The notes under the pieces are model-generated. The model made no database searches. It was given only the letters and a program-made list of their open reading frames with translations, and had not been told where the DNA came from. A program made the translations under genes and the position numbers. DNA of 55,185 nucleotides from Candidatus Cloacimonadota bacterium (GTDB lineage: Bacteria > Cloacimonadota > Cloacimonadia > Cloacimonadales > Cloacimonadaceae): contig JAQUJJ010000005.1 of NCBI GenBank assembly GCA_028681035.1, forward strand, positions 1-55,185, written 5' to 3'. Shown piece after piece: positions 102-41,716 of this stretch (positions are counted from its first letter, which is position 1; each line of letters opens with the position of its first letter).

Positions 102-280
102 TTGACTTACAATTACGCTGCGACGAGCTTTAGAAAAAGCAAACAATGCTACAACACAGCGTAATTGTGAGTTAAACAATGTAACCAGAGGATAGCATCT
201 ATTGTTTAACTCAGAAATCTGCGAATTTCAAGTAATAGTGCTTTTATCTGAAGATACTTCTCGCCGATTTCTAAGCCAAA
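102..280 (+). repeat. Composite palindromic repeat A-B, copy 1
   Basis: Two imperfect palindromes lie side by side. Palindrome A (about 102-176) has arms ACTTACAATTACGCTG and CAGCGTAATTGTGAGT around a variable centre of about 36 bases. Palindrome B (about 205-280) has outer arms TTTAACTCAGAAATCTGCG and CGCCGATTTCTAAGCCAAA. The linker carries its own 10-base inverted repeat (GTTAAACAAT / ATTGTTTAAC). Related copies lie near 6.1, 36.2, 40.6 and 41.6 kb. The outer arms are conserved and the centres vary. The function is unknown; a MITE-like element or a structured RNA are the main options. Confidence 0.8.
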
Positions 281-424
281 CATCTCAGTCGTTTCATCCA
301 AACTCATCATTGGAAATAGGCAAGCATATCTGAAATTCATTGACAAAAAAACGGCAGAACACCAACATGTTTTTCATTTAGAATAGCTATCTACAATAGC
401 AGAGAATTATGGAATGGAGGATTT

Positions 425-1906
425 ATGTCAAGATACCGAAAACTAGTATTACTACTGCTTATAGTGTGCGGTTTATCGTTAATTAACGCTGTAGCAATAG
501 ACGATTTTAAGGACGCAATATCCAAAACAGAAGGGGATGCCACAGCCATAACTGCAATAATTCAGGAGTACCTGCCTCAGTTTAAAACAGTGGAAGAGCT
601 TAGAGAGCTGCAAAACGTATGGCAGCAAACGGATAAAGAAGCCTCATCAGCATATTTTTGCAAGGCTTCTTACAAGAATCCTGATTCACCAATATATCAG
701 TATCTTATCTTGCGTATTGAGGATGATAGCGCAATACAGTTAGAAGGTGCGGAAATGCTTTGCACGCAGCATCCTGAATTCTATTGGGGCTATCGTTTGC
801 TGTCAGTTAACGTGGCGGAAGCACTTGTTAAGGCTGAGAAAGAGGAAGGCAATCCCCTTGAAGGCAAAGAAGAATTGTTCGCCTTAGCAGAGCAAGGTTT
901 GCAGCACTTCCCTGATGATACCTACTTGAATCTATGCCAGTTTCACCATTACAGAATAGCTAATGACCCCACCAAGGCAGCAGCTTATTTGCTGAAAGTA
1001 AACGATATAGCAGCATTAAACTCGAACTGGAATCTCATCATGGATTTCATCGTGGATAATAAACGTAGCGACATCTTTGAAAGAATATTCCCAAAGATGG
1101 TTTCCGATGCAGTTGCCAAAGAACAGATAAGTGCTGAAGAAAGCGATGATGTCTATCGCAGTCAGTGGCTTAGCCTGCAAGAAAAGCTGGATAATTGGGA
1201 CGTGATAGCCACTGTGTTCGAGAATGATACCAGCTTGAAAGAAAGCCCTGCTTGTGCGGTATATTACGAAAAGTTACTTATCAATAAGAATAAAAACGCA
1301 GATTTGCTGGATTACCTGAATGTAAGGCTAGATAAGGGTGATATAGATTTTAACGACATAAAGAATGAGAGCTTATACGAACCCTTGCATACGGAAACCA
1401 GTTGGCAAACCTTGCTTACTAAAGCCGAACAAAAATGGGCAGCAGACGAACCCAAACGCAAAGCAGAAGCACTTAAAGACCGCAGCAGCAAAGATGCGCC
1501 CTTGTGGGAATATCCCAATGCTGAAGGTAAGATGATTAAACTGGCAGACTATAAAGGACAGGTGGTGGTGCTGGATTTCTGGGCTACGTGGTGCGGTCCC
1601 TGCCGCATGGCAATGCCAGCATTGGATACATGGATGAAAAGCAAAATGCCTGCTAACGTAAAAGTCTTTTCTATCAATGTGTGGGAAGATGCTGTGGAAA
1701 AGGCTAAAGCATACTTTATAGATAATGATTTCAGCATGACGCTGCTGTTTGGAGAGAATAGTATTTCCAAAGATTACGGCTTTAATGGCATTCCTTACAT
1801 TTGCGTGATAGATAAGCAAGGGAAGGTAGCCTATGCTCAAAATGGCTATAGCGAAACCTTGGAAGATAACCTTGGCTACTGGACAGAAGTACTATGTAAG
1901 GAGTAA
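425..1906 (+). CDS. Secreted TlpA/ResA-like thioredoxin-fold protein with long N-terminal helical domain
   Basis: A 493-aa protein with an N-terminal hydrophobic signal segment (about residues 6-22). A long, mostly helical region follows (about 25-350) that looks TPR-like but has no repeat I can register with certainty. A C-terminal thioredoxin-fold domain (about 355-493) has the redox motif WCGPC with cysteines 390 and 393. Family knowledge: TlpA/ResA proteins exchange disulfides in the periplasm, often supporting cytochrome or envelope protein maturation. The start follows GGAGG by a good spacing. The gene is followed after 2 bases by a thioesterase gene and then an HhH gene, so the three are probably co-transcribed. 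The substrate cannot be read from the sequence. Confidence 0.85.
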   Translation: MSRYRKLVLLLLIVCGLSLINAVAIDDFKDAISKTEGDATAITAIIQEYLPQFKTVEELRELQNVWQQTDKEASSAYFCKASYKNPDSPIYQYLILRIEDDSAIQLEGAEMLCTQHPEFYWGYRLLSVNVAEALVKAEKEEGNPLEGKEELFALAEQGLQHFPDDTYLNLCQFHHYRIANDPTKAAAYLLKVNDIAALNSNWNLIMDFIVDNKRSDIFERIFPKMVSDAVAKEQISAEESDDVYRSQWLSLQEKLDNWDVIATVFENDTSLKESPACAVYYEKLLINKNKNADLLDYLNVRLDKGDIDFNDIKNESLYEPLHTETSWQTLLTKAEQKWAADEPKRKAEALKDRSSKDAPLWEYPNAEGKMIKLADYKGQVVVLDFWATWCGPCRMAMPALDTWMKSKMPANVKVFSINVWEDAVEKAKAYFIDNDFSMTLLFGENSISKDYGFNGIPYICVIDKQGKVAYAQNGYSETLEDNLGYWTEVLCKE

Positions 1907-1908
1907 GC

Positions 1909-2304
1909 ATGGAAGAACCTCGTTATGATACCTGCTTTGCATGCGGGAAGGATAATGCCGTTGGGCTAAAGCTGGAGTTCAGCTATGTTGGAGATAAGGC
2001 TGTTGCGGAGTTTACGTCCCCCGCATGTTATGAAGGGTACAGAGGTGTTATTCATGGCGGGATAATAACCACGCTAATGGATGAAGCCATGGCTAAAGCT
2101 ATTCTAATCTCCGGGAAGAAAGCTGTAACAGCACAAATAACTACTCACTTTCGCAAACCACTAAGAACAGGCTTGAGAGTACTTGCTTCCGGCTGGATAA
2201 CAGCAAGCAAAACCAGAACTATAAAAACAGCAGCACAAATAGCAGATGCCACAGGCTCCGTAATTGCCACTGCGGAAGCGGTATTTATTGTAAGCGGGAT
2301 ATAA
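1909..2304 (+). CDS. PaaI-type hotdog-fold thioesterase
   Basis: A 131-aa protein that fits the single-domain hotdog acyl-CoA thioesterase family (PaaI/YbgC-like). The motif VIHGGIITTLMDEAM, with HGG followed by the long central helix, is the family hallmark, and a beta-rich C-terminal half follows. An N-terminal CFACG segment resembles the short 'FACG' start seen in several PaaI-like thioesterases. Expected reaction: hydrolysis of an acyl- or aryl-CoA thioester in the cytosol; the substrate is unknown. An AAGGAG ribosome site lies at the end of the upstream gene, and the 2-base gap suggests translational coupling. Confidence 0.8.
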   Translation: MEEPRYDTCFACGKDNAVGLKLEFSYVGDKAVAEFTSPACYEGYRGVIHGGIITTLMDEAMAKAILISGKKAVTAQITTHFRKPLRTGLRVLASGWITASKTRTIKTAAQIADATGSVIATAEAVFIVSGI

Positions 2305-2306
2305 GA

Positions 2307-2966
2307 ATGAAACTAAAGAATCCCCTGCGCAATTACCTTACTCCCAATGAACAAAGAATCCTCCTCTTCTTCGCTACTTTGGTTTTGCTTGGCTCTTGGC
2401 TGGATTTTACTGGATGGACTCCTTTGGAGGCAAAGAAGACAGATTTGGATAGCCTCCGCAAGGTTGTGCAGGTGGATGCACCGCTAAATCTGGATATCCG
2501 CAGCGCTGGACGGGAAGAATTGATGACCCTTAGGGGTATCGGCGAGAAAAGGGCGCAGGATATCATAAGCTTTCGCCAGAAGAAACCCTTTAGCTCTGTA
2601 AATCAACTGCTGCAAGTGAAGGGCATAGGTGCTAAGACTTATGCTAATATTCTGCCGGATTTGCTGGTCTTTGGGGATAGCACTAATCTGGAAAGTGTTT
2701 CCCAAACAAGTGCTAAAACAAAAGGCAAATCCACCAGAGTGAGTAGCAGCCCCAAAAGCGAACTGACAACGATAGTAAATATCAATACTGCTTCGCTTAA
2801 GCAGCTCTGCACTTTAGTGGGTATAGGCGAAGTAAAAGCCAAAGCTATCATTGCTTGGCGCGAGGAGAACGGTGCATTTGCCAGCGTCGAAGATATCACT
2901 CAAGTGAAGGGAATCGGCGAGAAAACCTATCAGAAAAACAAGCACAGATTGAGTATTGGCAGATAG
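2307..2966 (+). CDS. ComEA-like membrane-anchored helix-hairpin-helix protein
   Basis: A 219-aa protein with one N-terminal membrane segment (about residues 18-35) and two ComEA-type HhH units. The first (about 58-118) has LRGIGEKRAQDI and VKGIGAKTYANI; the second (about 150-215) has NINTASLKQL, VGIGEVKAKAI and VKGIGEKTYQ. A basic, serine-rich linker joins them. Family knowledge: ComEA binds double-stranded DNA at the outer face of the membrane during natural transformation, but many membrane-anchored HhH proteins lack a proven role. No other competence gene is in the window. It follows the thioesterase by 2 bases in the same operon. Confidence 0.8.
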   Translation: MKLKNPLRNYLTPNEQRILLFFATLVLLGSWLDFTGWTPLEAKKTDLDSLRKVVQVDAPLNLDIRSAGREELMTLRGIGEKRAQDIISFRQKKPFSSVNQLLQVKGIGAKTYANILPDLLVFGDSTNLESVSQTSAKTKGKSTRVSSSPKSELTTIVNINTASLKQLCTLVGIGEVKAKAIIAWREENGAFASVEDITQVKGIGEKTYQKNKHRLSIGR

Positions 2967-2990
2967 GATAAGGCTTATACTGTTGGTGCT

Positions 2991-3028
2991 TTATCCGTGT
3001 TAATCCGTTTAATCCGATAAATCCGTGT
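2991..3028 (+). repeat. Short degenerate AATCCGT direct repeats
   Basis: Four near-copies of the heptamer AATCCGT occur in 38 bases between two operons. They could be a small repeat or protein-binding site. Nothing else supports a function. Confidence 0.4.
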
Positions 3029-3097
3029 AGCTATACAATCAATTTTACTCCAAATATTGCTTTTCAAAGAATAGGGGAATGCCAGCAAACAAAGAGA

Positions 3098-3125
3098 TTG
3101 ACATAAACAGCCCTTGCTTTAGATT
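3098..3125 (+). promoter_or_regulatory. Putative sigma-70-type promoter for the rsmD operon
   Basis: TTGACA (3098-3103), 16 bases, then TAGATT (3120-3125). The predicted start is about 25 bases before the ATG at 3158. It matches a vegetative consensus by eye only. Confidence 0.5.
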
Positions 3126-3157
3126 GCCCCTTGCAAAAGATATTATTGGGAGAAATA

Positions 3158-3730
3158 ATGAAAACCAACGAAAGTAGCTGGCAACCAACCCTTACCCTGG
3201 CTAAGCTTTTTGAAGAACAAAATCAGTTCTACGATGCTTTGGCTGCTTATGAGCTTATCAGCCAGAATGATGCCTCTCCGGCAGTGCGGGAGAGGATTGA
3301 ATCTTTGCACCTTCGTATTTTAACAGACCCCAATAACCGCTATGACCCGCGTATTGAAAAGCTTTTCTCTCCCGAGGAGCTTGCTTATCTAAAGATTCTG
3401 CACCATCAGGGTTTTGATAATATGGCAAAGACCATAGAAAAACTCAGCGAAGGCATGCAAGGCTCGGAGATTTTCTTTGATGCAGTCCCCGAGGATGTGC
3501 TTGCCGATGAAAGCGAGATGGATACTCTGGCTGAAATGCTTAAAGAAATTGAGCAGCAGGCACAGCTAAATCTTATCTCGGAAGCAGGCGATTTTACCGA
3601 TTACAGCATTCAAGACCTGATGATTGCCATATTGGCAAGATTTGATAAAAATCAAAGACTTAATGAGGTTAAACTAAGCGATCTTGTGTCGCTGTTTCTG
3701 GAAATGCAGAGCCTCAAACCTATGCGTTAA
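3158..3730 (+). CDS. TPR-like protein of unknown function
   Basis: A 190-aa soluble acidic protein. I chose the ATG at 3158 because GGGAGA lies just before it; a TTG at 3131 in the same frame has no ribosome site. Residues 5-60 have a helical hairpin pattern typical of one or two TPR units (LFEEQNQFYDALAAYELI). The rest is acidic and helical. I do not recognise a family. The stop overlaps the start of the next small gene (TAATG), and that gene overlaps rsmD in the same way, so the three are likely coupled in translation. Confidence 0.65.
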   Translation: MKTNESSWQPTLTLAKLFEEQNQFYDALAAYELISQNDASPAVRERIESLHLRILTDPNNRYDPRIEKLFSPEELAYLKILHHQGFDNMAKTIEKLSEGMQGSEIFFDAVPEDVLADESEMDTLAEMLKEIEQQAQLNLISEAGDFTDYSIQDLMIAILARFDKNQRLNEVKLSDLVSLFLEMQSLKPMR

Positions 3731-3906
3731 TGAAGCCTAAGTCATCAGTCAGTTTCAATTCAATCTGCATCCGTTGCACAAGGAAGTGTAAACAACCCGA
3801 AAGTGTAAGTCTGTTGGCGTGCCCCAAATTCGATGCCATACCAGTGCAGCTTGAGATTAAGTTCACCGGCATCAGAAAACCCCGCAAGAAAACAGCATCC
3901 GTCTAA
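3730..3906 (+). CDS. Small cysteine-rich protein (58 aa) upstream of rsmD
   Basis: An open frame from ATG at 3730 (overlapping the previous TAA) to TAA at 3904-3906 (overlapping the rsmD ATG) encodes 58 residues. Cysteines at 13, 16, 20 and 31 have spacing C-x2-C-x3-C-x10-C, and the C-terminus is strongly basic (RKPRKKT). This could bind a metal or Fe-S cluster, or make a zinc-knuckle-like fold near RNA. The single-base overlaps at both ends and the absence of any other explanation for 175 bases inside an operon support a real gene. No family is recognised. The weak point is the lack of a clear separate ribosome site, as expected for coupled translation. Confidence 0.65.
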   Translation: MKPKSSVSFNSICIRCTRKCKQPESVSLLACPKFDAIPVQLEIKFTGIRKPRKKTASV

Positions 3907-4439
3907 TGCGTATCATCACAGGCATTCACAAAGGCAGGAATCTCTCTATAGTACCGGGTTATACCACCCGTCCTACAACTTCCTTCAATCGCGAGATGAT
4001 CTTTAGTGTGCACCAGGATTATGAAGGTAAGCGTGTGCTTGACCTCTTTGCGGGAACCGGTTCTTTCGGACTGGAAGCTATTTCTCGTGGAGCGGTATGG
4101 GTGGATTTTGTGGAGTTTGCTCCCGCTGCTATTGGCACATTACTAAAGAATATCGCCTTGCTTAGTTGCGGAGATATCTGCCATCTTTGGCGGAAAAGAG
4201 TGGATGCTTACCTAAAGACTTGCACCGAGACCTACGATATTATCTTTATGGACCCGCCCTATATGAAAAACCTTGTTAACCCCATTATTAAGCTTGTAGT
4301 AGAGCGAGAACTGCTAAACCCGGGTGGCTTGATAGTGGTGGAGCATTCTCCCAAAGAACCCATAGACGAAACTTTCTTACCGCTAATTATTAAACAAAAA
4401 GGCAGTAAAAGCTCCAGCTTTACTTGGCTCTCAATGTAA
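3906..4439 (+). CDS. rsmD: 16S rRNA (guanine(966)-N(2))-methyltransferase RsmD
   Basis: A 177-aa Rossmann-fold methyltransferase. It opens with the typical RIITGIHKGRNL, then has the TRPTT/NREMIF substrate region. Motif I is VLDLFAGTGSFGLEA (SAM binding, about residues 44-58) and motif IV is MDPPY (D116-Y119), as in N2-guanine methyltransferases. Family role: methylation of G966 of 16S rRNA in the assembling 30S subunit. Length is normal for the family. The start overlaps the stop of the small Cys-rich gene. A bidirectional terminator follows. Confidence 0.93.
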   Translation: MRIITGIHKGRNLSIVPGYTTRPTTSFNREMIFSVHQDYEGKRVLDLFAGTGSFGLEAISRGAVWVDFVEFAPAAIGTLLKNIALLSCGDICHLWRKRVDAYLKTCTETYDIIFMDPPYMKNLVNPIIKLVVERELLNPGGLIVVEHSPKEPIDETFLPLIIKQKGSKSSSFTWLSM

Positions 4440-4459
4440 TGCTACTAGACAATATAGCA

Positions 4460-4486
4460 AAAGGCATCCTGTTACGGGATGCCTTT
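4460..4486. terminator. Bidirectional intrinsic terminator
   Basis: A 10-bp stem AAAGGCATCC / GGATGCCTTT with a 7-base loop lies between convergent genes (rsmD on plus, outer-membrane protein on minus). The A and T residues that flank the stem give a U-rich tail in both directions. Confidence 0.8.
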
Positions 4487-4508
4487 ATTGCATTATTTGT
4501 ATATTGTA

Positions 4509-5678
4509 TTAGAAATTGTAATCTACAGAAACCATGCTGGCAAGACCATTGGCTTTGCCACCGATGAAATTGGGTCCGTCATGCAACAAGGTTTTGCTTA
4601 ATACGGTATCAACGGTGAACTTGTTGAACTTGAAAGCAAGCCCCATATCCATGCTAAATCCTGATTGATAATCGGCAGTTTCAGTGTTTGGTGTTCCATC
4701 GGGATCATCGTTGTAAGCATGGAAAGCATAATGTTGAGTTGCGCCAACTCTTCCGGTAAGCCAAGGTTGAATTAGTGATTCCAGTCCGATTGTATAGGTG
4801 GGGACATACATCCATGATTCGCTACCTTTGTCTGTACCTGAAGGGTCTTTTTCTTCCCAGCCTTGGGATACTAATCTAAGAGGTTTGACGGCGAATATTA
4901 TGCTACTCTTTTCATCTAACTTATAGTTAATACCTGCGCCAAGGTCAAACATCATTGTGGATTCATCTTTAGTGTTTTTAGCACCCGTCATTTTTTGTTC
5001 TTCAGAATGACTCTTAATGGCAAGATTGGCAGCACCAACCAAGTCAAAAGCGTCATTTTCCATTACAAAATATCTGCCTTGCACACTAAACCCAAAACCA
5101 CCAACTGAGCTTTCGTCTGAATCTACATCATTCTCTGTGCCAGCACCCCATAAGGTAATAGCAGCACCGATATCCATCTTTTCATCGCTCATACCACCGC
5201 TTACTTCAAAGTAAGATGCGCTAAGATTAGCGGATTTATCAGGATTATCACCGATATCTTTTTCTCTGCTGTCGATCGCCATGGCAAAACCGACGCCAAA
5301 CTTTTCCATGAAACCATAATACATCTGGATTTTCTTACTGATGTCCAAATCCCCTCTGTTGTAATAATTCCATACAGGGAGGTAGTTATCGACGTTTATC
5401 TGTGTATTGGTATTCAGATACACACCGAGGGTGTTACCTTCGCTTATCATGCAAGGAAGGTTTGCGCCAATCATCCAATCGGAACCTAAGGTACCAAGCT
5501 CGGCTCTGAGGTTTCGTTCATACATGTTGATAACGCCAGGATAGGCAGAAATGTCAGTGTTATCCCGGATAAAACCAAAGGGATTGCCCAAGGCGGTCAT
5601 TCTGCTTTCTGTGGCGAATACGCTGCTTACGCTAAGGGTAAGCACTACGAATAACAGGAGCAATGCTTTGCGATTCAT
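4509..5678 (-). CDS. Putative outer-membrane beta-barrel protein
   Basis: A 389-aa protein with a clear signal peptide (cleavage near residue 22, after SSVFA). Alternating amphipathic strands follow, and the C-terminus ends in aromatic F (SVDYNF), typical of outer-membrane barrels. An N-terminal stretch of the form ALGNPFGFI...DISAYPGV resembles the start of PorV/UPF0164-type barrels, where NP residues follow an early strand. The ligand or partner is unknown. It is monocistronic: its own promoter (5744-5773) lies upstream and a shared terminator downstream. GAGAGG precedes the start. Confidence 0.7.
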   Translation of the reverse strand: MNRKALLLLFVVLTLSVSSVFATESRMTALGNPFGFIRDNTDISAYPGVINMYERNLRAELGTLGSDWMIGANLPCMISEGNTLGVYLNTNTQINVDNYLPVWNYYNRGDLDISKKIQMYYGFMEKFGVGFAMAIDSREKDIGDNPDKSANLSASYFEVSGGMSDEKMDIGAAITLWGAGTENDVDSDESSVGGFGFSVQGRYFVMENDAFDLVGAANLAIKSHSEEQKMTGAKNTKDESTMMFDLGAGINYKLDEKSSIIFAVKPLRLVSQGWEEKDPSGTDKGSESWMYVPTYTIGLESLIQPWLTGRVGATQHYAFHAYNDDPDGTPNTETADYQSGFSMDMGLAFKFNKFTVDTVLSKTLLHDGPNFIGGKANGLASMVSVDYNF

Positions 5679-5743
5679 AAGAATCCTCTCAATTTTTTAT
5701 TACCCAATCCAGATGTATAAAGCATCTAAATCAGGCTGAGAGC

Positions 5744-5773
5744 ATAATAATGAGAGACCAATAAACCTGTCAA
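5744..5773 (-). promoter_or_regulatory. Putative promoter of the outer-membrane protein gene
   Basis: On the minus strand TTGACA (5768-5773), 18 bases, then TATTAT (5744-5749), about 60 bases before the start codon at 5678. Good match to a vegetative promoter by eye. Confidence 0.6.
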
Positions 5774-6110
5774 TCTTTTTTTTTGTACAAATACACATTT
5801 AGAGCATTACTGACAGGAGTTGTTGCCTCATTTCTTAGGAATATTTCTGAAATATAAGAATCGTTACCATCTATGCTAAGCTATACATATCATTGTGTTA
5901 AATGCTATACGTGTCACATAGACTAATCCAATAGTGAAAAGTAAAATCGCTAAAACCATAATGACAAAATAGTTCTAACGCTACTATAAAAATACGATAA
6001 AACGCCTTTACTTTTCTTAGTCATTAGGTACTAGCCAGATATCGATTTCTACTAAATTGCAGCAAAACTGCTACTTTTTTCTTGCTTCAAGTTTCACTTA
6101 CAAATTAACG
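5774..6110. other. AT-rich intergenic stretch
   Basis: More than 300 bases without a supported gene. I see no open frame with a ribosome site, no strong hairpin and no repeat shared with the rest of the window. The next element is the palindrome composite at 6111. Confidence 0.5.
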
Positions 6111-6293
6111 TTTGACTTATATAATCGGCGACGATATTTATTGGGCAGTAGGGTACTTAGTGCACACATTGCCGATTTATGAGCTAAACGGGGTTAACCT
6201 GCTTTTCCTGTTATATTTTTAACTCACAATTACGCTGTGTTTTAGTTGTACTGGTTTGTTACTGAACTGATCTTAGCGTAATTGTAAGCCAAA
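6111..6293 (+). repeat. Composite palindromic repeat B-A, copy 2
   Basis: Palindrome B (about 6111-6188; arms TTTGACTTATATAATCGGCG and GCCGATTTATGAGCTAAA) is followed by a linker of about 40 bases and palindrome A (about 6228-6293; TTAACTCACAATTACGCTG and AGCGTAATTGTAAGCCAAA). This is the same composite as at 102-280 in reversed order. It is joined directly to the long hairpin at 6298-6388, 110 bases before mtnA. Confidence 0.8.
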
Positions 6294-6297
6294 AACC

Positions 6298-6388
6298 CTT
6301 CCTTGCTTGCATTGCCCTATCAATGCCCACTCATTGTCCATGTGGAGGGCAATAGGTGGGCATTGATAGGGCAATGCAAGCAAGGAAG
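6298..6388. repeat. Long perfect-type hairpin, 39-bp arms with 13-bp core
   Basis: Left arm 6298-6336 and right arm 6350-6388 pair at 37 of 39 positions around the core TCCATGTGGAGGG. The arm contains 11-base spaced CATTG motifs. A second copy at 41723-41805 has arms that differ at several positions but stay self-complementary, and its core is the exact reverse complement. No U-run follows, so it is not an ordinary terminator. Confidence 0.85.
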
Positions 6389-6498
6389 AAACGCAAAACG
6401 GCTATTTTAACAGTAGGTTACAAGAAAGATATTGACGAATATCCCCATAGTGAAACTAATAGCATCAGCCTAAAAGGCATTATTACACAGGAGATTAG

Positions 6499-9283: not shown

Positions 9284-9294
9284 AGTAGGAAAAA

Positions 9295-13043: not shown

Positions 13044-13122
13044 GAAGTGCTGGCGTGTTGAAGTTCTGGAGTGTTGATGTGTCGGTGTGTGGAGCAGCTT
13101 TCCTATGCTGCAAAAGTGAAAA

Positions 13123-13178
13123 AGTGGAAGAGTGGAAGAGTGGAAGAGTGGAAGAGTGGAAGAGTGGAAGAGTGGAAG
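13123..13178 (+). repeat. Seven-copy 8-bp tandem repeat (AGTGGAAG)
   Basis: Seven exact copies of AGTGGAAG run head to tail, with partial copies at both ends. This is a simple-sequence tract likely to vary in copy number by slippage. It lies between the xdh stop and the REP-like module and is not in a gene. Confidence 0.9.
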
Positions 13179-13198
13179 AGTGAAACAAATGCACACAT

Positions 13199-13402
13199 TG
13201 GGTTGCCGAACTATTGGGTTATTGGGTTGCCGGGTTATTGGGTTGCCGAACTATTGGGTTGCCGAACTATTGGGTTGCCGAACTATTGGGTTGCCGAACT
13301 CCGATTCGGCAAAGGCAGCCATGCTGCCTAAGAAAGCGACCTGCGGTCGCTGTGGCAAAACGGAGTTTGCCACCCCCAAGCAGTCACCCCCAAGCAGCCA
13401 CC
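13199..13402 (+). repeat. REP-like module, upstream copy
   Basis: A 16-bp unit GCCGAACTATTGGGTT occurs at 13205, 13245, 13261 and 13277. Four adjacent hairpins follow: GCCGAA-CTCCGA-TTCGGC (13293-13310), GGCAGC-CAT-GCTGCC (13314-13328), GCGACC-TGC-GGTCGC (13336-13350) and GGCAAA-ACGGAG-TTTGCC (13354-13371). A run of CACCCCCAAGCAG-type direct repeats closes the module. The downstream copy keeps the same stems and changes mostly loop bases. Confidence 0.85.
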
Positions 13403-13430
13403 CAAATATAAGATGCATTAAAAGGATGTT

Positions 13431-14060: not shown

Positions 14061-14109
14061 TGTTTTATATGGTGTAGTGTTTCTTTTTGTTGATGCTGTG
14101 TCAATAAGT

Positions 14110-14288
14110 TGCTGAACTATTGGGTTATTGGGTTGCCGGGTTATTGGGTTGCCGAACTCCGATTCGGCAAAGGCAGCATGGCTGCCTAAGAAAGCGACCT
14201 GCGGTCGCTGTGGCAAAACGGAGTTTGCCACACCCAAGCAGTCACCCCCAAGCAGCCACCCCCAAGCAGCTACCCCCACTAGCCACCC
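14110..14288 (+). repeat. REP-like module, downstream copy
   Basis: The same four hairpins in the same order as the upstream copy: 14151-14168, 14172-14186 (loop ATG instead of CAT), 14194-14208 and 14212-14229, followed by CACCCCCAAGCAG-like repeats. It has fewer copies of the 16-bp leading unit. It lies 70 bases before the PTS IIA-like gene. Confidence 0.85.
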
Positions 14289-14361
14289 CATATCAAGAAT
14301 TTGGTTGACGTTTCGTAAGGAAGAAAAAACGATGTTCTTTAGATAAATAATCGGTGAGAAC

Positions 14362-15757: not shown

Positions 15758-15776
15758 CAGGAACGTTGAGGGCTAG

Positions 15777-17873: not shown

Positions 17874-17884
17874 GAGATTATTAG

Positions 17885-18886: not shown

Positions 18887-18948
18887 GAGCTTTGCAAGTG
18901 AAGAGAAAGATTAGAATCTAAAAAAAATAAACATTAAAGGGGGATAAG

Positions 18949-25542: not shown

Positions 25543-25566
25543 ATTATTCCAAGGAGGAATTATAAA

Positions 25567-26307: not shown

Positions 26308-26316
26308 GGAGATTAA

Positions 26317-26742: not shown

Positions 26743-26750
26743 GAGGTAAG

Positions 26751-27185: not shown

Positions 27186-27196
27186 GGGCGGATAGA

Positions 27197-27829: not shown

Positions 27830-27843
27830 ATTGGGAGTGTTTC

Positions 27844-30963: not shown

Positions 30964-30973
30964 GGGAGGAACT

Positions 30974-32005: not shown

Positions 32006-32037
32006 ACCAAATAAACGAATATTAATAAGGAGAAAAG

Positions 32038-34242: not shown

Positions 34243-34264
34243 ACCCAGAACCTTAAATACAAAG

Positions 34265-34295
34265 AATGCCCCGGTTAATCCGGGGCATTTATTTT
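34265..34295 (+). terminator. Intrinsic terminator of the TonB/secretion operon
   Basis: Stem AATGCCCCGG / CCGGGGCATT (10 bp) with loop TTAAT, followed by TTATTTTT. Lies 22 bases after the stop of the T9SS-tailed gene. Confidence 0.9.
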
Positions 34296-34302
34296 TCGTA
34301 GC

Positions 34303-34320
34303 TGCGGTCTCCGAACCGCA
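34303..34320. repeat. Isolated hairpin sharing the REP loop
   Basis: TGCGGT-CTCCGA-ACCGCA. The loop is identical to that of the first REP hairpin near the RAYT gene, while all the stem pairs differ. It stands just after the terminator. Confidence 0.5.
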
Positions 34321-34349
34321 CAACTTGTCCACGGAGGATACCATAGCTC

Positions 34350-34840
34350 CCCATGTTTTAGAGTTCAAGGAGCCAATCCTATCTTTATACTTATGAACAT
34401 CATAGGCTCATGTTCATTTAAAGTGGGTGAGTGCATCAATGAAACATTTTATAGCTCGTTTAGAGCAAGCAGCCTAAATCCCATTATGGATGGTAGATAA
34501 TAGCGACGGGTTTTAACCCGGCGTTAATGAATATATTATTCCAAAGAAAGCCCCATCAGGGCGAAAGCTGTCTTTGTATAGCCAACTAATATCGCCAAAT
34601 AAACTTCAGACCATCTGACGTCCCGCGGGGACTAAAATGTAGTTTTGATCTATCGTCCCGCCGGGTTAAAACCCGTCGCTAATACCTATCGTCCCGTCGG
34701 GACTACTGTCTTGTATTTTTGAAGCTCAATTTATCTTACCCACCATAAATGAACTTGAGCCACATCATACAGGCTCTTCGAACTTCAAGAAACCAGAGCA
34801 AGTGACGCTGAAGTCCATATCGCTTGCAGACTTAGGGGGA
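34350..34840 (+). repeat. Multi-hairpin element C, copy 1
   Basis: About 450-490 bases of noncoding sequence shared with 40700-41520. Recognisable blocks: GGCTCATGTTCATTTA, AAACATTTTATAGCTCGTTT, CGACGGGTTTTAACCCGGCG, GCCCCATCAGGGCGAAAG, GTCCCGTCGGGAC and a tail TTATCTTACCCACCATAAAT. Many blocks are short GC-rich hairpins. No open frame is shared between copies. It fills the gap between the terminator and the convergent flavoprotein gene. Confidence 0.8.
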
Positions 34841-34846
34841 TAGCTC

Positions 34847-36109
34847 TTAAATTGGTAACGGCGACATGAACTCCAGACACGTTTTCATTATAGCTGCAGA
34901 AATGCCTGCCAACCAGCCTGTTGAAACTGCCATCTGGATGTTGAATCCTCCCGTGGGAAGAGCGTAATCCATAATTTCACCGGCAAAATAAAGCCCAGTA
35001 CACAAACGAGATTGCATTGTCTTGGCATTTATCTCCGTTAAAGATATTCCTCCTGCGCTAGCCATGGCTGTGTTAAGCCCGTTTACCATAGCTATTTTAT
35101 AGCGGCAATCCCCCAGCATATTAGCCAGTTCACGCAGGTTTTTCTTCCCAAGATTATACATAGGGGTCTGGCTATCAAAATGGTGTTCATCGAGGATAAC
35201 CCGTAGCAGATTCTTGGGTACAGGAGCAGTCCACAGGGCATTGAGAATAGACATGTTAGAGTACATTTTGTGCATTTCGAGAATCAAATCTTCACCTTTG
35301 GGTACCCAGCACACTGAAATTTCCATGCCTTGGCTGAATCTATGGCAGTTATCTAGGATCAATGGTCCAGAAAACCCCGTATGAGTAATAAGCAAATCTC
35401 CCACTGCTCTAGTTCTCTTGCCACCACCGATAAATGTGGCTTGTGCATTGGGAATGCTGATGCCTGCGCAGGTTTTGTATTTATCAAAGTGCTCGATACT
35501 AACGCTGTTTAAATGCGATCTGAATTGAACAGGCTTATGCCCCAAAGCCTTAGCGAATATAAGTGCCTTACCATCGGAACCAGTTTGGGGATAACTTGCC
35601 CCTCCGCTTGCAATAACAAGCCTTTCACAAGCAAGCTGCTGCCCATTTTCTAGATCCAGCATAAAGCCTTTGTCATTGTTTTTGTGTACATCCCGCACCT
35701 TGCTATCTGTAAGGATTAAAACTCCTGCTTTTATCGCTTGCGCCACCAGTGCATCGCGCACATCCGAGGCTTTCATGGATTGGGGGAATACTTTGTTATC
35801 CGCACGAATAGTGCTTTCACATCCTGCTTCTGCCAATAAGCTTGAAAAAGCATCGTTAGTAAAACTGTAATAAGCAGGCTTCAGGTAATTTGCATATTCT
35901 CCACAACGCAATAAGAATTCTTTCACAGGGAGGTGGTGAGTAAAGTTACATTGTCCACTGCCACTCAGCAGTAGCTTGTTCCCACAGGCGGAACTACCCT
36001 CCACAAGGGTTACTTTTCCTGGTCGATTGCCCAAAGCTCTACTGGCTGATATAGCGGCAGCTAAACCGGCAGGTCCTCCTCCGATAACAATTATATCAGT
36101 GTGGTTCAT
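34847..36109 (-). CDS. NAD(P)/FAD-dependent oxidoreductase of the HI0933 (YhiN/BaiN) family
   Basis: A 420-aa flavoprotein. DIIVIGGGPAGLAAAISA is the dinucleotide-binding motif. LVEGSSACGNKLLLSGSGQCNFTH is characteristic of HI0933 proteins, as are VIASGGASYPQTGSDG and the C-terminal GLYFAGEIMDYALPTGGFNIQMAV. Family members are flavoproteins of uncertain physiological substrate; some reduce bile-acid or aromatic alkenes. AGGAGA precedes the ATG at 36109. It is transcribed opposite to its neighbours and has its own promoter. Confidence 0.88.
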   Translation of the reverse strand: MNHTDIIVIGGGPAGLAAAISASRALGNRPGKVTLVEGSSACGNKLLLSGSGQCNFTHHLPVKEFLLRCGEYANYLKPAYYSFTNDAFSSLLAEAGCESTIRADNKVFPQSMKASDVRDALVAQAIKAGVLILTDSKVRDVHKNNDKGFMLDLENGQQLACERLVIASGGASYPQTGSDGKALIFAKALGHKPVQFRSHLNSVSIEHFDKYKTCAGISIPNAQATFIGGGKRTRAVGDLLITHTGFSGPLILDNCHRFSQGMEISVCWVPKGEDLILEMHKMYSNMSILNALWTAPVPKNLLRVILDEHHFDSQTPMYNLGKKNLRELANMLGDCRYKIAMVNGLNTAMASAGGISLTEINAKTMQSRLCTGLYFAGEIMDYALPTGGFNIQMAVSTGWLAGISAAIMKTCLEFMSPLPI

Positions 36110-36142
36110 TTGGCTATCTCCTAAAGTGCTTCTTATCTAACA

Positions 36143-36171
36143 AAGCTATTTTATTGCCACTGATATGTCAA
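36143..36171 (-). promoter_or_regulatory. Putative promoter of the flavoprotein gene
   Basis: On the minus strand TTGACA (36166-36171), 17 bases, TAGCTT (36143-36148), about 35 bases before the start codon. Confidence 0.5.
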
Positions 36172-36220
36172 GCGAAACATACTGTAACCACAAACGCTCT
36201 GCTGTGCGCACTCGATGCGA

Positions 36221-36537
36221 TTTGACTTACAATTACGCTGCTACTAATCTCGTGATAAGTTAATCTAACTACCACACAGCGTAATTGTTAGTTAAATATA
36301 TTACATACACTGCAGCAGGTTTTGTTTTAACTCATAAATCGGCGAATTGATAAATGGCAGCGTTTGTTGGGAAGATATAGTCGCCGATTGTATAAGTCAA
36401 AACTACCACACAGCGTAAATGTGAGTTAAATATATTACATACACCGCAGCAGGTTTTGTTTTAACTCATAAATCGGCGAATTGATAAATGGCAGCGTTTG
36501 TTGGGAAGATATAGTCGCCGATTGTATAAGTCAAAAC
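36221..36537 (+). repeat. Composite palindromic repeat A-B with 134-bp tandem duplication, copy 3
   Basis: Palindrome A (36221-36296), linker and palindrome B (about 36325-36401) are followed by a second unit that repeats the right half of A, the linker and B (to about 36537). The two units, 134 bases apart, differ at only about four positions, so the duplication is recent. The B centre here is nearly identical to that of the copy at 40564-40641 on the other strand, and unlike copies 1 and 2. Confidence 0.85.
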
Positions 36538-36624
36538 CTACGTTAACAACTTTAGATTAGTTTGTTCTTGACTGTTTGTGCCACTGTTCATAATAAGCTC
36601 AAACTTAAGTTTCAGAGGTGGATG

Positions 36625-37647
36625 ATGAAAGTTTCACAGGTTTTGGAGCATATAGAGCACTTTGCTCCCTTGGGTTTGGCTTTGAGCTGGGATAATGTTG
36701 GCTTGTTACTGGGAGATAAGAACTGGGAAGTATCCAAGGCTTTAATATGCCTAGATGTTACACCCAATGCCGTAGATGTAGCAATAAACAGTAAGTGCGA
36801 TATCATTATTAGCCATCACCCCCTAATCTTCCGTCCGCTGAAAAGCATAGTAAATCCACTATACATAAAGCTTATTCAGCAGCAGATAGCCGTAATCTGT
36901 CTGCATACCAATCTGGATGTGGCAAAGGTTAGTGTAAACCACATTCTGGCTAAAAGGCTAGGCTTGGAAGTATTATACTCTTTAAGCGAAGAAAGCGGCG
37001 CAACTAGCCACCATATCCAAACATACTGTCCACCAGATGCAGCAGAACGAATATGCGAGGCTGCTTTGAAAGCTGTAGCCGGAGGATGCCAATCCTCCGT
37101 TTGTACTGTTCACAATGCTGAAGGCATAACAGAAACATCTTTGGAGTTTAGCTGCGATTCCTTTTCACTCTCCGGAGTATTACATGCCATTCGTTTTGCA
37201 CACCCCTATGAAACTCCTCTAATCATCCACCATCCTCTGGAAAGCCGTAATCCTGCTTTTGGCTTAGGATTGGTGTGCAGGTATCCAGAGAGCCACAGCC
37301 TTGCTGAGATTGCCTTAGTGGTAAAACAGCAGCTTGCCTGTCCTCAGATTAAACTGTGGCTGGCGGGTAAAAAACCAGAGGATAAAATAGATCGCATAGC
37401 TATATGTGGCGGCTCGGGAGCGTCTCTGTTATCTGCCGCTAATGCTAAGGCACAGCTATTTATAAGCGGTGATATATCCTATCATAACTTTCTGGATAGC
37501 CACATCCCGATTATTGATGCCGGGCATTTCTACACGGAATATCCTGTGCTGGATTTCCTGTCGGAACAGCTAAACGCACTTGCCCTGCCAAACAAAATAA
37601 TGCCTATGCAAGAACATGAATATGCCATTAATATGGAGCTATTATGA
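36625..37647 (+). CDS. Nif3-like dinuclear metal center protein
   Basis: A 340-aa protein of the Nif3/DUF34 family, long form with an inserted central domain. Metal-ligand motifs: SHHPLIFRPLKS, CLHTNLDVA, GDISYHNFLDS and GHFYTEYPVLDFL. ATG at 36622 and 36625 are both possible; I prefer 36625 for its spacing from AGAGG. An in-frame ATG at 36562 lacks a ribosome site. The biochemical role is unsettled in the family (GTP cyclohydrolase-like or metal-chaperone roles proposed). It overlaps the C10 peptidase gene by four bases (ATGA). Confidence 0.85.
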   Translation: MKVSQVLEHIEHFAPLGLALSWDNVGLLLGDKNWEVSKALICLDVTPNAVDVAINSKCDIIISHHPLIFRPLKSIVNPLYIKLIQQQIAVICLHTNLDVAKVSVNHILAKRLGLEVLYSLSEESGATSHHIQTYCPPDAAERICEAALKAVAGGCQSSVCTVHNAEGITETSLEFSCDSFSLSGVLHAIRFAHPYETPLIIHHPLESRNPAFGLGLVCRYPESHSLAEIALVVKQQLACPQIKLWLAGKKPEDKIDRIAICGGSGASLLSAANAKAQLFISGDISYHNFLDSHIPIIDAGHFYTEYPVLDFLSEQLNALALPNKIMPMQEHEYAINMELL

Positions 37648-39560
37648 AGAAACTCGTAGTTGCTTTTCTTTTCCTGTTGCCACTCTTAGGGCTGTTTGCA
37701 GGAAGCATCTCAGCAGAAAGAGCACTCAACATCGGTAGAGAGTTCTTTTCTTCCCTCACCGGTAACGATAGTGTTGCTTGCGATATTGAAGCTTATCGCA
37801 GCTCAGAAAACCAAGCAGCGGATTTCTACATAATCCGTTTTAATCCACTTGGATATTTAATCTTAGCAGCAGAAGATAAATCCACGCCGATATTGGCTTA
37901 TTCTTTGGAATCCAGCTTCCCAGAAGGGGATATGCCTCCTCAAGTAGAGTGGTATCTTAGCGAATATTCTAGTGGAATTGAGCAGATTAGGAAGCATCCC
38001 GATTGGCAGCTTGATCCACTTTGGCATGTTTTAGAAACGGGAAATTTCTCTGCTTACAGCCAAAATCGTAGTGTAGCACCTTTGCTAAGCACAGCTTGGG
38101 ATCAGGATTGGCCTTACAACTCTATGTGTCCGGCTGATGCCAGTGGTCCCGGAGGAAGGGTATATGCAGGGTGTGTGGCAGTATCTATGGCGCAGATTAT
38201 GAAGAAATGGGGATATCCTACTACAGGTAACGGAACACACTCATACAACCAAGCTGTGTATGGAGTTCAAACAGCTAATTTTGGAGCAACAACTTACAAT
38301 TGGGCGAATATGCCAAATAGCATTTATACTGTAAATCCTAGTATTTCTACGCTTATGTATCATTGTGGAGTAGCCGTGGATACACAATATGGCGCAGCAG
38401 CCAGTGGTGCTTTATCCGAGAACGTGCGCGATGCCATGGTAAACAACTTTAGGTTTAATGCAGCCGCAGTGTATAGAATGGCTTCTGCTTATACAAGTAC
38501 CGCTTGGGCTACAATGCTTAGGGCAGATCTGGATTTGGGGCGTCCGGTTTATTATGGCGGTAGCAATGGAAGTGTCGGACATTCCTTTGTTATAGACGGC
38601 TATACAGGTACTAATTACTTTCATATAAACTGGGGCTGGAGCGGGAGCTACAATGGCAATTTCTACCTGACGAACCTAAATCCCAGCTCATACAATTTCA
38701 ACCTGACCCAAGCAGGCATATTCAACCTTTATCCTCTTAACACTGCTCCACCCAATCCGCCGACCAATTTGATAGCTACGGAAGTAGCAAACACGGTTTA
38801 CATAACTTGGAGCACAGTAGGAGCTTACTCTAAGATATGGCGTTTAACGCAGGGACAGGAAACCAATGAAGCAGCTTGGGTAAGCCTTATTCCCGGTACG
38901 CAATACACTACTTCTTTTATGGACACGCCTTGGTCTTCTTTCCCATATGGAACCTATATGTGGGCAGTTAAAGCAGTTAGTGCCGCTGGAGTCTCGTCAA
39001 TTCCGGCATTCTCCAATCCTATCACTAAAGCAGCACCTATGCCCCTGGTTAGCGGCTGGAATCTGATATCGCTAAATCTCTCTCCCGGAGACCATGCCAT
39101 AGCTCCGCTAACCTCTTCGATATCCGCTAACTTGCTGCAAATTAAGTGTCCTGAGGGGATATACATACCCAATAACCCGTTTTCAACGCTTAGCTCCTTT
39201 ACAAATGGAAACGGGTACAACATGCAAATGGCGTCTGCTGTGGGCTGGGCAGTAAGCGGTTCACCTATTGCTGCATCTACACCAATAACATTGCAGGACG
39301 GCTGGAATTTGGTGGCATATCTGCCTCAAACTCCCCTCTCTGTGGCAAACGCCGTGCAAAGCATAAGCAATTGGTTAGTGCAGGTAAAGGGGACTGATGG
39401 CGTTTACGCACCTAATAATCCTTATTCCACATTAACTGCTATGTCGCCCAACAAAGGCTATTGGATTAAGATAATGGGTAATCACAATCTTATCTATCCT
39501 AGCGGTACTAAGGATACGGATTATGCTCACGAAACCACGCCGATTCTATTGGATAAGTAA
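37644..39560 (+). CDS. C10 (streptopain-type) cysteine peptidase with FN3 and GWN repeats, no sorting tail
   Basis: A 638-aa protein. Signal peptide to about residue 20, then an N-terminal prodomain (about 22-140) of the type that inhibits C10 zymogens. The peptidase domain (about 145-370) has catalytic C177 in VYAGCVAVSMAQ and H313 in GHSFVIDGY, followed by HINWGWSG. A fibronectin III-like domain (about 375-460) and two GWN-type repeats (about 467-545 and 546-625) follow. Unlike its paralogues it stops before a YPNPF sorting tail. The next gene starts 10 bases later with its own signal peptide and carries the tail. Confidence 0.87.
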   Translation: MKKLVVAFLFLLPLLGLFAGSISAERALNIGREFFSSLTGNDSVACDIEAYRSSENQAADFYIIRFNPLGYLILAAEDKSTPILAYSLESSFPEGDMPPQVEWYLSEYSSGIEQIRKHPDWQLDPLWHVLETGNFSAYSQNRSVAPLLSTAWDQDWPYNSMCPADASGPGGRVYAGCVAVSMAQIMKKWGYPTTGNGTHSYNQAVYGVQTANFGATTYNWANMPNSIYTVNPSISTLMYHCGVAVDTQYGAAASGALSENVRDAMVNNFRFNAAAVYRMASAYTSTAWATMLRADLDLGRPVYYGGSNGSVGHSFVIDGYTGTNYFHINWGWSGSYNGNFYLTNLNPSSYNFNLTQAGIFNLYPLNTAPPNPPTNLIATEVANTVYITWSTVGAYSKIWRLTQGQETNEAAWVSLIPGTQYTTSFMDTPWSSFPYGTYMWAVKAVSAAGVSSIPAFSNPITKAAPMPLVSGWNLISLNLSPGDHAIAPLTSSISANLLQIKCPEGIYIPNNPFSTLSSFTNGNGYNMQMASAVGWAVSGSPIAASTPITLQDGWNLVAYLPQTPLSVANAVQSISNWLVQVKGTDGVYAPNNPYSTLTAMSPNKGYWIKIMGNHNLIYPSGTKDTDYAHETTPILLDK

Positions 39561-39570
39561 AGGAGATATT

Positions 39571-40527
39571 ATGAATTACCGTTTATGTGTTTTCACAATC
39601 CTTATCCTCGCTAGCAGCCTGTTGTTTGCCACAGACCCTTGGAATAATCCTTCCACTCTTACGGGAAGCATGACTGTAATGGCGCAGGTTAGCATTAATG
39701 ATTCACCTGCTAGCAGTGGAGATGTTCTGGCTGCATTTGTTACGGTAGGTGGAACTCCTGAGCTTAGAGGAAAGGGGAACGTGCAGGTTCTTAGTGGATT
39801 ATCGGGATGCCTCCTGCAGGTTTTTACGGATAATAGCGGCGAAGTGATAAATTTCCGGGTGTGGGATGAGAGTGCGCAGCAAGTGCTGGATGCTAGCCAA
39901 ACCTTGGTTGCAGTAGTAGATGGAACCATTGGCAGCTATCCCTCCAATCTATATCAGATTAATGCTGATTTACAAGCGCAGATGGTGGCTATGCCGGAGT
40001 TTAGCATTCCTACGGGAACATATTCTACAGCACAATATGTTAGCTTAAGCTGCCAGACAACTGACGCACTGATTCGCTATACTACCAATGGAACTGAGCC
40101 TGCACTCACATCCAGCTTGTACAACGAGGCGATAACCATTGCCACTACCACTACCCTGAAAGCCAAAGCATTCCTTACAGGTTGGACACCCAGTGCAACG
40201 GCAAGCTCTGTTTACACCTTTGGGTCAGCAAATCCTGATAATCCTGATACTCCTGTTGTTACCGGCATATTTGATGTTTACCCCAATCCTTTCTCTTATG
40301 CTACAACCATTCAATTAGGAGTTAAAGAAGCCAACCAGCCGTATTGTTTAAAAATATACAACATCAAAGGAGAATTAGTTTACCGCACTGAAGGTGTTGC
40401 AATAGGCAGTTTCGAGCTAAACTGGAATGGGTATAGCAATGATGGGAAGAGGCTTCCTACAGGAATATATCTCATCTCTTTTAGTGCTGGAAATACAACT
40501 CAAGCCCGTAAAACGGTGCTGAAATAG
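39571..40527 (+). CDS. Secreted protein with DPWGTP-type module, chitobiase-C-terminal-like domain and sorting tail
   Basis: 318 aa from the ATG at 39571, preceded by GGAGAT; an upstream in-frame ATG at 39523 lies inside the peptidase gene. Signal peptide to about residue 19. The ~110-aa module begins DPWNNPSTLTGSM and ends NLYQINA. A CHB_HEX_C-like domain (about 133-215; IRYTTNGTEP, TLKAKAFLTGW) and a sorting tail (about 228-318; VYPNPF, IKGELVYRTEG) follow. No catalytic domain is visible. It is likely a surface-bound accessory or binding protein. Confidence 0.78.
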   Translation: MNYRLCVFTILILASSLLFATDPWNNPSTLTGSMTVMAQVSINDSPASSGDVLAAFVTVGGTPELRGKGNVQVLSGLSGCLLQVFTDNSGEVINFRVWDESAQQVLDASQTLVAVVDGTIGSYPSNLYQINADLQAQMVAMPEFSIPTGTYSTAQYVSLSCQTTDALIRYTTNGTEPALTSSLYNEAITIATTTTLKAKAFLTGWTPSATASSVYTFGSANPDNPDTPVVTGIFDVYPNPFSYATTIQLGVKEANQPYCLKIYNIKGELVYRTEGVAIGSFELNWNGYSNDGKRLPTGIYLISFSAGNTTQARKTVLK

Positions 40528-40563
40528 AAGGCGGCTGCCTAGCTAAACATCACTAAGTGATAG

Positions 40564-40693
40564 TTTTGACTCATATAATCGGCGACAATATCTTCCCAAC
40601 AAACGCTGCCATTTATCAATTCGCCGATTTATGAGTTAAAATAAGGGAAACCTGCTGCGGTATATTAATATCTTTAACTCACAATTACGCTGT
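40564..40693 (+). repeat. Composite palindromic repeat B-A, copy 4 (A truncated)
   Basis: B (40564-40641) is nearly identical in its centre to the copy at 36 kb in inverted orientation. A linker of about 30 bases and only the left arm of A (40673-40693, TTTAACTCACAATTACGCTG) follow. Element C begins immediately after. The same A left arm recurs at 41641, so the C region is bracketed by it. Confidence 0.8.
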
Positions 40694-40699
40694 ATGATT

Positions 40700-41520
40700 T
40701 GAAGTCCAAAGAGCCATCATTATCTTTATACTTACTAATAGCTTAGGCTCATGTTCATTTAGAGTGGGTGAGTGCATAAATGAAACATTTTATAGCTCGT
40801 TTAGAGCAACCAGCCTAATCCCATTAGGGATGCAGGCTGTTGACAAACCTCGATAGAGGTGGAATACCTTAGCCTGAGGTGTGAACCTCAGGTATGAATA
40901 GGAGTATCAAACAAACCCCATGGGGGTGACACAATAACTGGCAACAGATTGCTATATTGTTATATGTGTCGCCCAAAAAGGGCTTTATATCTCTCTTAAT
41001 GTTGCCCTGGGGTTTCGCTTCGCTACACCCCAGGCTAATATCTTTCGTCCCTGCGGGACTTTGTCAACAGCCTGAATCCCAGTAGGGATGGTTGATAATA
41101 GCGACGGGTTTTAACCCGGCGTTAATGAAAATATCATTCCAAAGAAAGCCCCATCGGGGTGAAAGGTGTCTTTATATAGCCAACAAATATCGCCAAATAT
41201 ACATAAGACCATCTGTCGTCCAGCGGGGACTAATAATGTGTTTTAGCTCCGTTATCGCCGGGTTAAAACCCCGTCGCTAATACCTATCGTCCCGTCGGGA
41301 CTAATGTCTTGTATTTTTGAAGCTCAATTTATCTTACCCACCATAAATGAATTTGAGGCATAACTTAAAGGCTTTTTGGACTTTACATGAAAGCAATGTG
41401 TTTTGGAGTTCAAAGTGCCATTACTATCTTTATACTTATCAATATCTTACAGGCTCTTTGGACTTCAACGACCCAGAGCAGATGACGCTGATGTCCATAT
41501 CGCCTGCAAAGATGATAACA
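40700..41520 (+). repeat. Multi-hairpin element C, copy 2, interrupted
   Basis: Same blocks in the same order as 34350-34840, interrupted at 40833-41074. The right part (41090-41360) matches the first copy closely. No gene is supported within. Confidence 0.8.
40833..41074. mobile_element. 242-bp MITE-like insertion with 15-bp terminal inverted repeats
   Basis: Ends CAGGCTGTTGACAAA (40833-40847) and TTTGTCAACAGCCTG (41060-41074) are exact inverted repeats. The block is absent from element C copy 1, so it interrupts copy 2. Flanking sequences CAGCCTAATCCCATTAGG (from 40811) and CAGCCTGAATCCCAGTAGG (from 41068) form a near-direct repeat. The interior is a chain of hairpins, such as CCTGAGGT-GTGA-ACCTCAGG and GTCCC-TGC-GGGAC. 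No transposase is encoded. Confidence 0.65.
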
Positions 41521-41641
41521 TCTCATAACTCGTATCGGCGATATGAACTCCAGACAAAAATCGCTTTCATGTAAAGTACTGTTCGCCTTGATACCGAGAG
41601 CAAGCATGAGGCGAACTGAACTCCAAAACGCTTATGTTTTG

Positions 41642-41716
41642 TTTAACTCACAATTACGCTGTGTTGCAGATATTCTGCTTTATCATAAAACTCGTAGCAG
41701 CGTAATTGTAAGTCAA
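41642..41716 (+). repeat. Palindrome A, copy 5
   Basis: Left arm TTTAACTCACAATTACGCTG and right arm CAGCGTAATTGTAAGTCAAA around a variable centre. Six bases later the long hairpin begins, in the same order as at 6228-6388. Confidence 0.85.

Follow-up and report, generated by a model that had tools for sequence, protein, structure and literature searches.

Paired hairpins between Cloacimonadota genes as probable companions of a divergent transposase clade

We analysed a 55,185-nt stretch of DNA (the window; contig JAQUJJ010000005.1 of the Candidatus Cloacimonadota bacterium assembly GCA_028681035.1) that carries long palindromes of two kinds, A and B, between its genes. The NIF3 protein encoded on this metagenome contig shares 77% identity with one labelled Candidatus Cloacimonadota. 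A reading made from the sequence alone had reported palindromes A and B, side by side or in part, at five places, and all five were verified in the window. The grouping had to be revised, as the hairpins form four two-hairpin units, one with a tandem copy (36401-36534) and one split by 948 bp (Table 1). Each unit is ~180 bp long and contains A and B in opposite orientation, separated by a spacer of 28-32 nt, with TTTGAC or a similar sequence at the outer ends and TTTAAC or a similar sequence at the inner ends. The A hairpin has the arms TTTGACTTACAATTACGCTG and TTTAACTCACAATTACGCTG, and its exact arm core, ACAATTACGCTG, occurs at 109, 6226, 36229, 40681 and 41650 on the plus strand and at 157, 36277 and 41698 on the minus strand. 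The B hairpin has the core AATCGGCG; the cores of A and B were unlike in every unit read. Three B copies, at 6111, 36326 (with its tandem copy) and 40565, have a stem bulge of 1-2 nt that is missing from the B hairpin at 205-280.

Two of the five places, 40564-40693 and 41642-41716, are parts of a single unit whose A hairpin is interrupted by the 948-bp segment, with a 21-bp stretch on either side. Minus this segment, the unit matches unit 3 (36221) at 165 of 188 aligned bases. All units are intergenic, as the sequence-only reading had stated, and its further claim that every copy lies between transcription units needed correction: two units lie between divergently transcribed open reading frames (ORFs), one between co-directional ORFs and one at the contig edge. 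The sole ORF that overlaps any copy, a 98-aa antisense ORF at 41643-41939, we take as spurious. When Rfam was scanned at gathering scores, no family was found over the A and B copies.

The window has seven inverted repeats with a score of at least 13, whereas 20 dinucleotide-preserving shuffles had none or one apiece. The seven were four A hairpins, two copies of another palindrome, C, and one unrelated repeat (54972-55042). Palindrome C, at 6298-6388 and 41723-41805, has 42-bp and 38-bp arms, a 7-nt loop and CATTGCCC direct repeats in the arms; both copies are separated by 5-6 nt from the outer end of a neighbouring A hairpin. Similarly built long hairpins with other sequences were seen at seven loci of other genomes (loci and genomes carry L and G numbers): L002, L005, L007, L188, L189, L196 and L207.

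To delimit the copied sequence, we compared the four units and their flanks in all six pairs. In three pairs (1-3, 1-4 and 2-3), similarity covered the doublet from one outer end to the other, to within 2 nt. It overshot one end by 6-8 nt between units 3 and 4, extended on one side into a flank common to both, palindrome C, between units 2 and 4, and was partial between units 1 and 2. That similarity among the window copies mostly stops at the TTTGAC outer ends favours the doublet as the thing that is copied, although this comparison of sequences is not proof of transposition. By eye, no duplicated target was found beside the window copies, for which no empty site was available. IS200/IS605-type enzymes are not known to leave a target duplication.

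Table 1. Hairpins of the four units and the associated segments in the window
Feature	Position	Strand	Remarks
Unit 1, A hairpin	101..176	+	left end GTTGAC, right end GTTAAA
Unit 1, B hairpin	205..280	-	inner end TTTAAC, outer end GCCAAA
Unit 2, B hairpin	6111..6188	+	outer end TTTGAC, stem slightly bulged
Unit 2, A hairpin	6218..6293	-	
Unit 3, A hairpin	36221..36296	+	
Unit 3, B hairpin	36326..36401	-	stem slightly bulged
Tandem duplicate (134 bp) of 36267-36400	36401..36534	+	A right arm, spacer, B; 98% identical
Unit 4, B hairpin	40565..40640	+	outer end TTTGAC
Unit 4, initial 21 bp of A hairpin	40673..40693	-	TTTAAC arm, severed by 948-bp segment
Segment splitting unit 4 (948 bp)	40694..41641	.	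contains Acido-Lenti-1 match and second-family hairpins (TGGAGTTC/TGAAGTCC)
Unit 4, complete A hairpin	41642..41717	-	initial 21 bp repeat 40673-40693

Other genomes do not clearly share the exact A arm: with at most one mismatch it was found at 11 places in 10 of 124 genomes, against 4 control matches, and a scan of viral contigs returned a single stretch that we judged to be chance. Searching DNA with a whole unit as query returned short matches only (best E 0.0047), but because places in this match list recurred within single genomes, related hairpins were found. Among 121 genomes of the phylum, 59 had matches to a generic arm, TTTRACTYAYAAWT, which in many of them did not stand out from the control. 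The clear multi-copy carriers, with control matches in parentheses, were G006 with 107 (5) matches, G007 with 24 (2), G012 with 21 (0), G009 with 15 (0), G003 with 9 (0), G002 with 5 (0), and G041 and G016 with 4 (0) each. G059 with 5 (10), G119 with 6 (7), and G124 and G051 with 5 (2) each were not counted. The closest relative in the genome collection, G001 (HGW-Cloacimonetes-3, locus L002, nearest by its NIF3 protein at 70%), and G011 bear elements with other cores, yet have only 0 and 1 generic-arm matches. G006 is presumably Candidatus Cloacimonas acidaminovorans.

A single rule set yielded 99 hairpins, present in 25 of 26 loci selected for the motif or for a gene of the transposase clade described below, and none in 78 loci fetched with NIF3 (1.2 Mb). 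Since these rules demand paired arms and no bulge, the bulged B hairpins and the window hairpin at 101-176 fall outside the 99, of which 4 are from the window and 50, many nearly identical, from G006. One arm starts with TTTG and the other with TTTA in 98 of these hairpins from motif-chosen loci, the remaining one being G/G. When 51 neighbouring pairs within 200 bp were sorted by direction, 28 had their inner (TTTA) ends facing, 16 had their outer (TTTG) ends facing, six pointed the same way and one was unresolved. Doublets of two unlike cores recur, with TTATAATTCTGCC beside AAACAAATGCC in G012 and CAATTTTG beside TCTAAACCGA in G006, G007 and G009, and were also read in G001. Tandem arrays of doublets occur, those of G006 with many copies. 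The hairpins measure 70-76 bp in the window, G012, G001 and G011, and 105-111 bp in G006, G007, G009, G003, G002, G041, G016 and G015.

The sequence-only reading would have been refuted by arms that fail to covary across many copies, and the arms do covary. We reduced the 99 hairpins to 35 arm pairs and these to 11 representatives. Of their 99 core cells, 90 are paired, and we counted 16 extra pair types and 31 compensated cells; when the arms were re-paired 2000 times, no trial reached any of these three values. As the rule set asks for paired arms, the paired-cell count is biased towards pairing; more weight belongs to the extra pair types. Pairing of the ends is also kept inside each hairpin, because at two G006 loci (L157 and L158) four hairpins have TTTGGC paired to TTTAGC, while the adjacent hairpin retains TTTGAC. 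On this evidence we dropped a four-way junction, with the outer ends of a unit paired together and the inner ends together. At the same loci (L157 6533-6625 and L158 9079-9190), single TTTGAC arms stand in tandem with a 31-bp period beside an A hairpin.

A search for the Y1_Tnp domain (PF01797), which was blind to palindromes, matched 15 of 16 genomes. At three loci, L153 (G006), L161 (G007) and L195 (G001), four TTTRAC hairpins each lie within 700 bp of the gene, on both sides of it. No TTTRAC hairpin was present at 27 of 32 locus listings around Y1 genes, among which a few genes are listed twice. For ten loci (L173-L182) the gene positions are rough, and none of these contains such a hairpin anywhere. 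In G001 the Y1/HUH transposase gene sits between two complete doublets, and in G001, G006 and G007 hairpins of both kinds lie on either side of the gene. In both G001 and G006 the stop codon of the gene, TGA, is contained in the TTTTGACTTA end of the hairpin that follows; in G007 the corresponding TTTTGACTTA end is degenerate.

With an alignment of the three proteins as query, 62 of 121 genomes matched at 1e-10. Five genes scored above 240 bits, namely the query sequences from G006, G007 and G001 and two that were not in the alignment, from G015 and G011; the next scored 171. By one and the same rule, TTTRAC hairpins lie within 700 bp of the HUH motif at all five genes of this clade and at 0 of the 25 other loci returned. 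The G015 gene has one hairpin, on the one flank present in its contig, and the G011 gene has one doublet upstream and a worn copy, read by eye, downstream. The five clade proteins group together in a 35-protein tree (support 100/100). Two other G001 genes, L194 and L196, which lie beside TGGAGTTC/TGAAGTCC hairpins, form a separate group (98/97), and both groups are nested in a group of eight that includes L210 (99/98). In the protein database the clade comprises 23 proteins above 230 bits, followed by scores of 186 and 162. Since one of the 23 bears a Salinivirgaceae name, the clade may extend beyond the phylum.

Palindromes were also seen beside more distant transposase genes. A Y1 gene at L209 (167 bits) has a short hairpin at 1363-1406 with the arms AACTTAACTCAT and AACTTGACTTAT, and because this hairpin has the same G/A polarity, the motif may predate the clade. 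Other palindromes lie beside other Y1 genes of the phylum at L187 (182-bp ones), L190, L191, L198, L200 and L201; each may be a separate repeat family.

The three transposases pass the PF01797 model with 33-39 bits (cut-off 23). The two HUH histidines and the tyrosine are invariant across 56 aligned rows, and the HUH and Y motifs of the clade are NHFH and YIHANP. Their sole NCBIfam match is NF047646, a model of RAYTs, the transposases associated with repetitive extragenic palindromes (REPs). A PDB sequence search with the three proteins gave no match. We compared a structure model (mean pLDDT 85.4) with the PDB using Foldseek; the predicted fold most resembles 4ER8, the E. coli TnpA-REP with a REP hairpin (E 1.4e-7; TM-score 0.58 by query and 0.73 by target), followed by the IS608 and ISDra2 transposases.

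We conclude that the window units are very probably REP/REPIN-like elements of a non-autonomous kind, and that their partner is a divergent RAYT of Cloacimonadota (a TnpA-REP, or Y1/HUH single-stranded DNA transposase). The layout of the units, its recurrence with other cores in other species, the covariation of the arms and the hairpins beside every found gene of one RAYT clade all point this way. A non-autonomous element had been among the options left by the sequence-only reading, and it is this option that gained from the same-layout doublets flanking RAYT-type genes in relatives and from window similarity that mostly ends at TTTGAC. A RAYT encoded elsewhere in the window's genome would recognise the folded hairpins and the TTTGAC foot in single-stranded DNA, by analogy with REPs. 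It would then cut at the element ends and spread the doublets between genes, as proposed for REPs. In the parts of the literature available to us, here and below, IS200/IS605 transposases are described as using single-stranded intermediates and recognising subterminal structures, and TnpA-REP proteins as possibly responsible for REP proliferation (PMC6006769). The cores of A and B may differ because equal inverted hairpins would form one long palindrome, prey of SbcCD-type nucleases that would remove it; unlike cores would prevent such pairing, an argument already made for REP heterodimers (PMC3733652).

Several observations weigh against this interpretation. A clade gene was detected in only two of the eight clear carriers (G006 and G007), although the genomes may be incomplete; G012 and G009 had no transposase match at 1e-10, and G003, G002, G041 and G016 had weaker matches only. 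The window, whose long ORFs were scanned only in part, yielded no RAYT gene. Single TTTRAC hairpins occur at two Y1 genes outside the clade, at 478 bp (L189) and within the gene (L190). The NF047646 scores, 57.9, 58.9 and 53.8 bits, are below the cut-off of 80. A GTAG or GTGG tag lies 5' of the hairpin foot in just 5 of 198 feet, and folding energy favours one strand too weakly (57 vs 38 of 98, mean -0.46 kcal/mol) for a strand preference to be asserted. Finally, neither a transposition event nor an empty site was seen, and movement is inferred. Where no gene was detected, the orphan doublets could be relics; the loss of REPtrons through deletion is noted as a possibility in PMC3733652.

Of the other explanations, the one that fares best, though we think it unlikely, is a miniature single-strand transposon of the IS200/IS605 type that has two ends. 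A and B would then be the left end and the right end, not equivalent to each other, of an element that used to be longer, and would not be amplified REPs. Cores that are always unlike in the units read, similarity that covers the whole doublet and a protein fold that also matches IS608 and ISDra2 would all fit such an element. However, the clade proteins have RAYTs as their nearest fold match and as their sole NCBIfam match, the gene in G001, G006 and G007 is flanked by both hairpin kinds per side rather than by one distinct end per side, and doublets occur in tandem arrays.

We consider it very improbable that the hairpins are kept for their RNA, as a structured RNA or transcription terminator acting in trans or cis. 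Their intergenic location and covarying stems are what such an RNA would have, and a role in mRNA is reported for REPs elsewhere. Yet A and B have opposite polarity within a unit, so that no single transcript holds both in the same sense, and two units lie between divergent genes. The lack of an Rfam family over the copies and the many-copy arrays of G006 also speak against it. Slightly less probable still is a miniature inverted-repeat transposable element (MITE) of a DDE transposon: the outer TTTGAC ends are inverted repeats, and size and intergenic place are compatible, but the gene between these ends encodes a Y1/HUH enzyme, and no target duplication is visible by eye beside the window copies, a comparison made without empty sites. 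Recombination sites like attC, of an integron or other tyrosine recombinase, would share the variable loops and the TTTAAC/GTTAAA ends (attC box motifs), but we regard them as scarcely credible given that one hairpin end is GAC rather than AAC in 98 of 99 hairpins and that the copies are scattered among ordinary genes.

The sequence-only reading knew of no family with a two-hairpin layout; this can no longer be said, as inverted REP doublets, termed REPINs (PMC3116915), and REP dimers with unlike stems, or heterodimers (PMC3733652), are published. Like the doublets of Cloacimonadota, REP doublets are multi-copy, consist of two inverted extragenic palindromes separated by a spacer and occur next to a Y1/HUH RAYT gene, and the doublet is the unit that is copied (PMC3116915, PMC8266576). 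Whereas REPs are short (20-40 bp) and GTAG-tagged (PMC3733652), the Cloacimonadota hairpins are 70-111 bp long and tag-free, and the A and B cores are unlike; on both tag (5 of 198 feet) and length they are not canonical GTAG REPs. E. coli bacterial interspersed mosaic elements (BIMEs) are likewise mosaics of two palindrome kinds in alternating orientation, but their units measure 29-37 nt, bear GTAG and contain an AA-GC mismatch (PMC8266576).

Also comparable are the TIRYT/TIRtron repeats (PMC3733652), in which RAYT-like genes lie between long GTAG-free repeats, some of them self-complementary, and some of which form moderately abundant families in dimers or clusters, as here. Their descriptions suggest a difference, in that the motif of several of these terminal inverted repeats is GGGGWSAS rather than TTTGAC and no fixed G/A polarity is described. 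Subclass 2.6 and class 3 of TnpA-Y1 (PMC6006769) also comprise RAYT-type genes beside multi-copy structures without GT[AG]G. Unlike here, subclass 2.6 is mostly from Bacteroidetes and class 3 has the foot CnGA. The clade motifs NHFH and YIHANP match no single row of Table 1 of that paper. The main texts of PMC6006769, PMC3733652 and PMC8266576 contain no word beginning with Cloaci-, and our literature search, outside whose scope most subscription journals lay, found no paper on such repeats in Cloacimonadota.

Inverted REP doublets, heterodimers and RAYT genes between long tag-free repeats are thus already published (PMC3116915, PMC3733652). What is new is that the hairpins are this large, that they end in TTTTGAC and TTTTAAC with a fixed polarity, that two unlike cores are paired and that the elements are linked to a divergent RAYT clade. 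It is still unsettled how RAYTs find and disperse their repeats, and the models for experiments that are described in PMC8266576 are small REPs of Proteobacteria with a GTAG tag. With its large tag-free hairpins, unequal paired cores and clear ends, the Cloacimonadota clade offers a test of which REP features matter (tag, stem, polarity or pairing). The REP-like reading also gives a name to repeats that recur in the genomes of a phylum known mostly from metagenomes. A more specific scheme, which we put forward tentatively and regard as doubtful, is that A and B are obligate, non-equivalent partners in a new class of RAYT-driven element. The enzyme would read a long hairpin through its TTTTGAC foot and fixed G/A (G.T wobble) polarity, not through a GTAG tag, and would require both an A and a B hairpin. 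In Cloacimonadota, RAYT subfamilies (the TTTTGAC and TGGAGTTC types) might then have co-diversified with two-hairpin elements, the RAYT stop codon being built into the element end.

Several further features of the window were noted. The segment that splits unit 4 contains the sole Rfam match in the window, an Acido-Lenti-1 RNA (RF01687) at 41006-41060 (47.2 bits), and three second-family hairpins with TGGAGTTC/TGAAGTCC-like arms, at 41401-41468, 41488-41553 and 41572-41625; hairpins similar to these flank the G001 Y1 genes at L194 and L196. Two intergenic stretches, 34470-34785 and 41068-41383, are 88-89% alike. Tandem repeats with units of 8, 16 and 15 bp occupy 13101-13300, 14092-14261 and 41850-41944, respectively, the first ones lying between ORFs or at ORF starts.

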